From NCBI RefSeq assembly GCF_024347435.1, contig NZ_AP025480.1, positions 1,736,001 to 1,800,000 of the forward strand: 64,000 nt of DNA, read 5' to 3'. This DNA is from Vibrio cyclitrophicus (GTDB lineage Bacteria; Pseudomonadota; Gammaproteobacteria; Enterobacterales; Vibrionaceae). A model generated the notes under the pieces. It was not told the DNA's origin. It did no database searches and was given only the letters and a program-made list of their open reading frames with translations. Shown here piece by piece: positions 2,218 to 4,020 of this stretch; within the stretch, counting starts at the first letter, position 1, and each line of letters begins with the position of its first letter. A program made the position numbers and the translations under genes.

Positions 2218-2298
2218 GCCGCATTAAGGTGTGAGCGGCGCTTGGCTATACTTGAGCGAAGCGAAACTGCCAAGCGTTGCGAATCACTCTTAAATACT
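2218..2298 (-). repeat. attC body of the 3487-4020 cassette, interrupted by two insertion sequences
   Basis: The sequence from CATTAAGGTGTGAGCGG to GCCAAGCGTTGCGAATCACTCTTAAATACT is the main part of a VCR-like attC and aligns with 4036-4160. Its left core (CATAACGAAT, about 848-857) lies beyond IS1111 copy A. Its right core (TGTTATAAGCC, 3485-3495) lies beyond the IS110 element. The site is thus in three pieces. It belongs to the minus-strand gene 3487-4020, whose stop codon sits in the right core. Confidence 0.75.
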
Positions 2299-2340
2299 TT
2301 GTATGGATAATAAGCGCTCCAATCGGGTAAGGTGAGACCC

Positions 2341-2505
2341 AGACTTTAGCTGCAACTAAAGTTCTTCTATCTGGTAGTTCGATTAAATGCTGGTTCCTCT
2401 ATCGAGAGACCGATAACAAGTACGAACGCCAGATAGAGCTCCAAGCACCACACTCGAATAGTCTTCTGGGTCTCGAGCCCGCATTTGCAAGCAAGAGTTA
2501 GCTTA
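2341..2505 (+). ncRNA. candidate bridge RNA of IS110 copy C (5' non-coding end)
   Basis: Visible structure, in order: a 5' hairpin ACTTTAG/CTAAAGT (2343-2349 with 2356-2362). Then a 9-bp stem TCTATCTGG (2366-2374) with CCAGATAGA (2429-2437), enclosing an internal loop capped by an imperfect hairpin (2392-2399 with 2403-2410). The 5' side of the loop has ATTAAATGCT (2382-2391), matching the left target TTAAATACT (2290-2298) with one G for A. The 3' side has ATAACAAGTA (2413-2422), the reverse complement of the rebuilt target TACTTGTTAT. A later segment ATAGTCT (2458-2464) equals the element's right end (3476-3482) and may be a donor guide. The right donor guide is not clear. Confidence 0.75.
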
Positions 2506-2507
2506 TT

Positions 2508-3464
2508 ATGAATACAAACACACTTCAAAACATTAATGTCGGCGTTGATACCGGCAAATCACAATTAGACATTTACATCCGTCCTCTCAATATTTACTTC
2601 ACTGTCCCCAACAATGAAAAAGGCATCAACGAAGCGGTAAAAACTATCGCTAAGCACCGCCCTAGCCGCGTGGTTATCGAAGCGACTGGTCGATTGGAAA
2701 TGCCTTTCATATTTGCCTGCGACAAAGCAAAACTTCCATACGTCATTGCTAACCCTTTGCACGTAAAAAAATTTGCTGGAGCCATTGGACGAAGAGCTAA
2801 AAATGACCGCCTAGATGCAGCTCTTATTGCTCACTTTGGGGAAGCTATCCAACCTAAATTGACCAAGCTAAAGAGCGAAAACATAAGGCTAATGAGTGAC
2901 TTAGTCACAAGGCGTAACCAGTTACTGTCCATGCAAACAATGGAAAAAAACCGACAACAAATTTTACCTCAGAGCTTAGCATCCTCAATCAAACCGATCT
3001 TAACTGCTCTGAAAAATCAGATCGTCAAGGTAGAAGAAAAGATATCAAAACTCATTGATACCTGCCCTGAATACCAAGCTAAAAATGAGATACTACAAAG
3101 CATGCCAGGAATAGGAAAAATAGCATCAGCTTCTATCATCAGTAATGTTCCTGAACTCGGTTTCATCACCAATAAGCAAGCGTCTTCTCTTATCGGTGTC
3201 GCCCCAATAACAAGAGAAAGTGGACGCCTCAAAGGTAAGCGGATGATCCAGGGGGGACGTGCCCAAGTTCGCACAGTCTTATACATGGCAATGATGTCCG
3301 CCATACAATGCAACCCAGTATTTAAGGCCACTTATGAACGATTACTTGCGGCAGGAAAACCAAAAAAAGTAGCGATAGTTGCCTGTATGAGAAAGATGGT
3401 TGTAATACTAAATTCGATGCTAAGAGACGGTGTTATGTGGGATAACAATAGCGCCAAAAATTAG
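2508..3464 (+). CDS. IS110-family transposase (recombinase), copy C
   Basis: 318 residues. The N-terminal DEDD domain shows [15 protein letters not shown] with the first Asp, [16 protein letters not shown] with Glu, and [18 protein letters not shown] with the Asp pair. The C-terminal Tnp20 domain shows [19 protein letters not shown] and [20 protein letters not shown] with the candidate nucleophilic serine. Length is normal for the family. The reading frame is intact and the ncRNA upstream is intact, so the element looks active or recently active. It is clearly different from copies A and B and belongs to the subgroup with a 5' bridge RNA. Confidence 0.92.
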
Positions 3465-3486
3465 CTATTGACGCCATAGTCTCTTG

Positions 3487-4020
3487 TTATAAGCCCTTTT
3501 TATATGACTTGGCTAACTCTTCGAAAATTACCTTTCTCTTGTTTAACAACTCTTCTCTCACGTCGTCCATGTCACTCTCTTTAAGAGACTGCTTACCGTC
3601 ATAGTATTTTCTACGCAACTCTTTTAAGAATTCGCCATAGTCACGAACTTGCGAAGAAATGTTGGTTAACCCCAATAGCATTAACTTAGATTCCGCTACG
3701 GTTAAGTTCTTAAACTGATCGAAAAGTTCCGACTTGGTGCGCTCTAACTCTTCATAGCGCTTTTCAGTTAAATCCATGTCTTGAGCATTATTTCGAACCC
3801 ATTCAATTATCAATGCCCAATATCGTAGTGAAACGTGCGTGACTTCTTCAATATTCGAGCTCACTGATTCCAGTGAATCATAGAATCTTTTTCGACTTTC
3901 TTTTTTGCGTTCATTTCGGTGATTTAACCATGTAACTAAAAACGTACCAACTAATGTAATGAGACTGCCTAACCCAATTTTGATGGCTGTATCGATTACT
4001 TGTAACTCTGTGATTTCCAT
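3487..4020 (-). CDS. hypothetical membrane-anchored coiled-coil protein (cassette gene)
   Basis: 177 residues, no family recognised. One transmembrane segment is visible near residues 13-31 (IKIGLGSLITLVGTFLVTWL), followed by a basic stretch (NHRNERKKESRKR) and a long, charged, helical region. AGGAG lies 5 nt before the ATG. The stop codon TAA lies in the attC core, as in other cassettes here. The topology suggests an N-terminal anchor with a cytoplasmic helical domain. Such small anchored proteins are frequent in superintegrons, and some act in phage defence, but nothing in this sequence proves that. Confidence 0.65.
   Translation of the reverse strand: MEITELQVIDTAIKIGLGSLITLVGTFLVTWLNHRNERKKESRKRFYDSLESVSSNIEEVTHVSLRYWALIIEWVRNNAQDMDLTEKRYEELERTKSELFDQFKNLTVAESKLMLLGLTNISSQVRDYGEFLKELRRKYYDGKQSLKESDMDDVREELLNKRKVIFEELAKSYKKGL

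Follow-up and report, generated by a model that had tools for sequence, protein, structure and literature searches.

How does an insertion sequence (IS) come to lie inside the attC site of a gene cassette? The question is raised by element C, an IS110-type element of Vibrio cyclitrophicus that lies in a 64,000-nucleotide stretch (contig NZ_AP025480.1, positions 1,736,001 to 1,800,000 of the forward strand), referred to below as the window and numbered from its first base. Element C belongs to the IS110 group, in the IS621/IS492 branch, and its surroundings are a cassette array. The bridge RNA encoded in its 5' non-coding region very probably aims it at attC. On the evidence of sequence comparison, the right guide of this RNA is adapted to the conserved core of attC and the left guide tracks the attC type of the host. 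We are confident in the fuller reading that insertion of element C into attC is guided by its bridge RNA and that the left guide has been re-tuned among relatives.

The uninterrupted site and the core

Comparisons were made over 53 loci. This set was derived from 80 loci, 13 of which were partial and not used, by adding the window to the other 67 and dropping 15. The flanks of relatives, together with attC sites found uninterrupted elsewhere, placed element C at positions 2300–3484 (plus strand, 1185 bp), from its left end, TGTATGG, to a donor core CT. The extent of 2290–3491 given in a first-pass annotation of this DNA takes in flanking attC letters. The left part of the interrupted attC (2219–2299), recognized by its match to uninterrupted attCs, lies between element C and another element, A. 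The right part (3485–3494) carries the R'' core, TGTTATAAGC, which is the right target; its uninterrupted form was seen at L111, where a homologous cassette gene lies beside TTGTTATAAGCC without the element.

Six uninterrupted attCs resemble positions 2219–2298 of the window (elements A and C removed), with identities of 79/80 (L136, L138, and L146), 78/80 (L148 and L215), and 74/80 (a second site of L146). Every one of them reads on TTGTTA, and in L215 the nine bases are those of the window itself, TTAAATACT. Since these six sites of the same type read TTGTTA, the empty site of element C is most likely TTAAATACTTTGTTATAAG. The first-pass annotation had excised the element at CT, taken as a core shared by both junctions, and its two guides were said to rebuild the resulting shortened site, TTAAATACTTGTTA. 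This solution was rejected because the same-type uninterrupted attCs disagree with it. The rebuilt letters were one T short, and the extra T found in relatives changes the assignment of the core; the claim of attC targeting is unaffected and is borne out by the covariation reported below. The short form TTAAATACTTGTTA does occur naturally, at 3 of the 10 sites that have the nine bases TTAAATACT in 227 genomes of the same genus, and these three attCs match the window at just 28–43 of 80 positions. Among the attC ends listed, with the nine bases fixed to TTAAAYRCT, spacing shorter by one base was found in 5 of 150. Natural ends of this shorter kind were noted in G008, G017, G086, G105, G120, G128, and G147.

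As read from the sequence, the donor core of element C is CT (3483–3484) and the target core retained at the left junction is TT (2298–2299). CT was assigned to the donor because the right donor guide of the bridge RNA, ATTTGCAAG, indicates CT. The right end, CATAGTCT with the donor core (3475–3484, plus strand), was delimited by the ends of relatives and by the match to the left donor guide. Taken with the constant right junction, the right donor guide points to a donor core that is either CT or TT and to a cut that follows the second T. A core of TT or GT throughout, considered from the flanks alone, was dropped.

A probable bridge RNA with a conserved fold

The bridge RNA region was aligned over 176 nucleotides (2332–2507; this extent is that of the alignment) in 41 sequences, namely the window and 40 of the 53 loci after de-duplication at 97%; L037 was left out on account of a 16-nt insertion. 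All RNA features lie on the plus strand. Folding with RNAalifold combined with pair counts revealed a 5' stem-loop (helix 1, 2343–2362), a target-binding loop (helices 2 and 3, 2369–2434), and a donor-binding loop (helices 4 and 5, 2437–2499, with its stem at 2437–2441/2495–2499). Each loop contains an inner hairpin, at 2392–2411 and 2468–2480, respectively. Of all alignment cells at paired positions, 97.8% were paired, a value reached by 0 of 500 shuffled alignments, and controls slid along the sequence gave 28–43%. Two-sided compensatory changes were found in 82 cells, as opposed to 21 after shuffling, and affected 11 pairs; neither count was matched in 500 shuffles. The inner target hairpin and the donor stem are nearly invariant, and their support comes from conservation rather than covariation. 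The structured 5' region that the first-pass annotation had described, with a hairpin and a stem enclosing TTAAATGCT and ATAACAAG, was thereby recovered in an element of recognized family membership, with the same architecture at 53 loci and with compensatory changes that preserve the fold. The layout is that of the IS621 bridge RNA as described in two reports (PMC11208160, PMC11208158).

Matches to the flanks and to the core identify the left target guide as TTAAATGCT (2383–2391) and the right target guide as ATAACA followed by the core-pairing bases AG, ATAACAAG (2413–2420). The annotation had extended the right guide by TA (2421–2422). These two bases occupy the handshake position, which pairs with the donor in IS621; they appear to match the shortened site by accident. 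As described in PMC11208158, the handshake of IS621 is base pairing with donor position 7. The corresponding base pairs with donor position 7 at 47 of the 53 loci; in the subclade of the window the first of the two bases does not pair with this position.

The left donor guide, ATAGTCT (2458–2464), had been proposed on the ground that it equals the right end of the element, and the proposal extends well beyond the window: guide and right end share the same heptamer in 51 of the 53 loci (ATAGTCT in 30, ATAGTCG in 17, and ATACTCG in 4), and of the two other loci one has a T/G mismatch and one a G-T wobble. ATAACA is followed by two core-pairing bases, which agree with the donor core in all 53 loci (CT in 31 and TT in 22). 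The right donor guide, ATTTGCAAG (2483–2491), was located from the pairings published for IS621, whose own guide letters were reconstructed from PMC11208158, two of them being deduced from their partners. Relatives have exactly CATTTGCAAGC in 14 of 53 loci and most others have one more base, three being unparsed. One locus outside this set, L163, combines CT-type guides with a TT-type right end, CATAGTCGT, and is either a hybrid or a case in which the wrong end was assigned to the element.

Covariation of guides and flanks

The left guide was defined as the nine bases preceding GG.TCCTC and was compared with the bases left of the junction, two registers being allowed. The mean best match between a left guide and its own left flank was 6.64 of 9 bases in the 53 loci, versus 5.21 (standard deviation 0.15) for permuted pairs, and was attained in 0 of 20,000 permutations. 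A hold-out search of both strands yielded 29 loci, of which 23 were parsed; 12 with a guide and flank already seen were set aside, and the 11 new ones gave 7.45 versus 6.54 (standard deviation 0.23), with 10 of 20,000 permutations as high; loci share descent, so that both permutation values overstate independence, which counts against the reading, and the odd cases weigh most. Unusual attC types come with correspondingly unusual guides at L029, L031, L083, L038, L039, and L080. Three of these re-tuned left guides fit their sites at nine of nine bases: TATCCTTAT (L029), CTAACAGCT (L039), and TTGATGCAT (L080).

The right guide ATAACA pairs with TGTTAT, and TGTTA is found on both sides in 47 of the 53 loci. 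Guide and right flank are altered jointly at L031 (AACGAAC with GTTCGTTA) and L039 (AATAAG with CTTATTA). The near-constancy of the right core in those 47 loci might also be explained if the recombinase itself read the core of attC, or attC folded as a hairpin, and the RNA served the donor side or had a structural role only; IS492 is said to have a short fixed target. A recombinase acting in this way does not account for left guides that vary with left flanks, nor for the joint changes at L031 and L039, and we regard this explanation as improbable. It is still less probable that the attC-like letters of the RNA arose by coincidence or from a captured attC fragment. The matched stretches are short (6–9 nt), but they stand at the guide positions of IS621, within a fold that compensatory changes have preserved, and together with donor guides and cores that fit.

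Nature of the insertion sites

Uninterrupted homologues, sharing 44 or more of the 50 bases upstream, were found for 25 of the 53 loci. A test of arm complementarity was passed by 22 of 52 sites at p 0.05, about 3 being expected; it is a weak test, missing the well-supported sites L004 and L080, and could not be applied to L012. One or both of these two tests for attC, by homologue and by arms, are passed by 33 of the 53 sites.

A genome of 5.2 Mb (G232), of the genus of Paraglaciecola sp. 20A4, contains six full copies of a related element, all on contig C1, that are identical over 1207 bp (TGT and core counted). Five of them (L202, L204, L206, L208, and L209) have attC-like arms by eye, and two of the five, L204 and L206, are without TAAC at the left core. 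CTTGTTA occurs 783 times in this genome (396 + 387), against 396 + 380 for the reversed control; with 783 occurrences and six full copies, CTTGTTA was rejected as the sole determinant of the site.

Several observations weigh against guidance of element C to attC by its RNA. Twenty of the 53 sites fail both attC tests, L017 and L021 look non-attC by eye, and the sixth Paraglaciecola copy (L193) is found within the coding sequence of a large protein, at TTTAAACTTC-TTGTTA, with a non-attC look. The window's left guide matches its own site at 8 of 9 bases (one mismatch; 9 if a wobble is allowed), and in attCs with nine-base spacing the left guide is displaced from the core by one more base than that of IS621. 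The right flank is out of register with the right guide at 4 of 53 loci (L029, which has an additional T at the right junction, L038, L040, and L083). The six handshake exceptions of the 53 loci, with T facing T, are all of the window's type, and the handshake base mispairs in 9 of the 11 hold-out loci (pairing in 2). The donor guide fits in 9 and the core in 10 of these 11, which include the mixed end of L163 and an unparsed guide at L183.

Copies outside attC (L193 and, by eye, L017 and L021) would be expected if insertion were wide and the apparent preference reflected survival in largely silent integron arrays, but survival alone would not put the junctions at a single position and orientation relative to TTGTTA, and we give this idea hardly any credence. 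Element C lies at the right (R'') core, as the first-pass annotation had it.

Proposed mechanism

By analogy with IS621, expression, binding, and catalysis would proceed as follows. Excision as a circle would join the two ends and create a promoter for the bridge RNA, which the recombinase would bind. The donor loop, through ATAGTCT and ATTTGCAAG, would hold the circle junction CATAGTCT-CT-TGTAT. The target loop would hold attC, with the right guide pairing to the conserved R'' core TGTTAT and the left guide, TTAAATGCT, to the adjacent nine bases, which are typical of Vibrio attC. After strand exchange at the core, TT, from the target, would remain at the left junction and CT, from the donor, at the right one. 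Among relatives, the left guide has been re-tuned to different types of attC, and the right guide has kept to the conserved core. This mechanism is the already known bridge-RNA one; what seems new is the attC target class and the natural reprogramming.

Comparison with IS621, IS492, and IS1111-type elements

IS621 (PDB 8wt6) resembles element C in having a homologous recombinase and a 5' bridge RNA with a 5' stem-loop and target and donor loops. Further likenesses are the right donor guide ATTTGCAAG and the right donor TGTAT, both as reconstructed from PMC11208158, a CT donor core, and a circle-junction promoter (PMC11208158). The targets differ: that of IS621 is the REP (repetitive extragenic palindromic) sequences of E. 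coli, according to the title of a reference, in contrast to attC for element C. The group of element C also differs in the one-base offset of the left guide and in the TT donor core of 22 of 53 relatives.

IS492 and IS621 are placed in one branch, with proteins of 315–330 aa, in PMC11187229, and PMC10359463 gives IS492 a length of about 1200 bp. The six-copy element of G232 measures 1202 bp between CTTGT repeats. Because of this length between CTTGT repeats and the genus of its host, it is probably IS492 of P. atlantica T6c. IS492 of Pseudoalteromonas atlantica has the target CTTGTTA and a length of 1202 bp. We know of no statement equating the CTTGTTA target of IS492 with the attC core.

These comparisons can be joined into a broader proposal, for which we see about even chances: a lineage of IS621/IS492-type bridge recombinases, IS492 included, would be an attC specialist whose right guide is locked on the attC core and whose left guide (together, in one subfamily, with a donor core changed from CT to TT) is reprogrammed to the host's attC, the one-base offset sometimes removing a T and perhaps leaving short attCs. 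If so, the IS492 insertion responsible for phase variation would be an off-target event of a parasite of attC, and attC targeting would explain why IS492 needs CTTGTTA. Element C and its relatives provide a natural covariation set for bridge RNAs, an unusually clean record of reprogramming with one guide kept constant and the other altered, and with a donor core that changes together with its pairing partners.

Members of the lineage were found in Vibrio, Photobacterium, Shewanella, Pseudoalteromonas, Alteromonas, Colwellia, and Paraglaciecola. Relatives at E values up to 1e-80 occur in 55 of 227 genomes of the genus, and 4215 of 7201 candidate proteins match at 1e-60; the matches listed include entries from V. 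fluvialis, V. cholerae, V. parahaemolyticus, and V. alginolyticus.

Insertion into attC is shared with IS1111-type elements. ISKpn4 and ISPst6, of the IS1111 type, are reported at one attC end, and IS1111 elements have subterminal inverted repeats and a guide RNA that is usually downstream of the gene (PMC11187229). In element C the RNA is upstream of the gene. Elements A (855–2218) and B (11040–12371) of the window are IS1111-like and resemble the ISKpn4/ISPst6 group. Element A, which shares its attC with element C, lies at the left core, as indicated by the uninterrupted ATAACG|CCGCATTAAGG in L136; element B was placed at the left core of an attC by the look of its flanks. Element C enters the opposite attC end from A and B, so that one attC is hit at both ends by two IS110-type families. 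A survey of Shewanella integrons (PMC9229058) mentions IS110 elements in arrays and no IS in attC. Our literature search, which covered open papers, retrieved nothing in titles, abstracts, or passages that connects elements of the IS110-proper kind with attC. As a target of the IS110-proper group, attC seems unrecorded.

Loss of one T at left junctions

In the 25 loci with uninterrupted homologues, the T preceding TGTATGG was kept in 15 and absent in 8, and the other 2 aligned with one base more. Five of the eight T-less loci are clear (L004, L008, L015, L020, and L022), the case of L032 is ambiguous, and alignment shifts seem to account for L034 and L072. The homologues of L004 and L015 are identical over 50 bp. 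At L029, which has no homologue in the set, the T is absent on the left and one extra T is present on the right. Guides that are one base out of step, relative to IS621, could possibly set the two strand cuts 3 rather than 2 bases apart and so account for the loss; alternatively, the element may have entered naturally short attCs. Both the T-less insertions and the natural short attC ends may be excision scars.

Recombinase gene, terminal sequences, and neighboring features

The intact recombinase gene (2508–3464, plus strand), preceded by 208 nt of the element and followed by 20 nt, encodes an IS110-type DEDD recombinase of 318 aa with matches to PF01548, PF02371, and NF033542, the score for the last being above the cut-off. 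The protein is homologous to the solved recombinases of IS621 (8wt6, E value of 1.5e-31, query residues 11–313) and ISCro4, and by eye the alignment shows identical residues at the DEDD and serine positions of IS621.

Direct reading of the plus strand reveals a –10-like GATAAT in the left end (2306–2311) and a –35-like TTGACG in the right end (3468–3473). Both ends are strongly conserved in relatives, both boxes are kept, and the arrangement TTGACG-17 bp-GATAAT arises only when the ends are joined. IS621 has a promoter at its circle junction, according to PMC11208158. A promoter scan of the window found nothing above shuffled sequences, such a scan being blind to a circle-junction promoter, and no match in the window reached the Rfam gathering thresholds. 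The left end (2300–2316, TGTATGGATAATAAGC) approximates an inverted repeat of the gene start (2500–2516, GCTTATTATGAATACA). The best complement over 17 bases was 8–16 in the 53 loci versus 5–8 in a control stretch; this complementarity could mask the start codon in read-through transcripts.

Element C is the sole full copy in its genome. Fragments of a relative are present on C2 (G000:C2:441846-442021), in a second region with attC-like ends. The cassette genes near element C are on the minus strand. Amid the cassettes of the window, positions 8598–10558 contain an IS91-type Y2 transposase gene adjoining a phage-type integrase gene.
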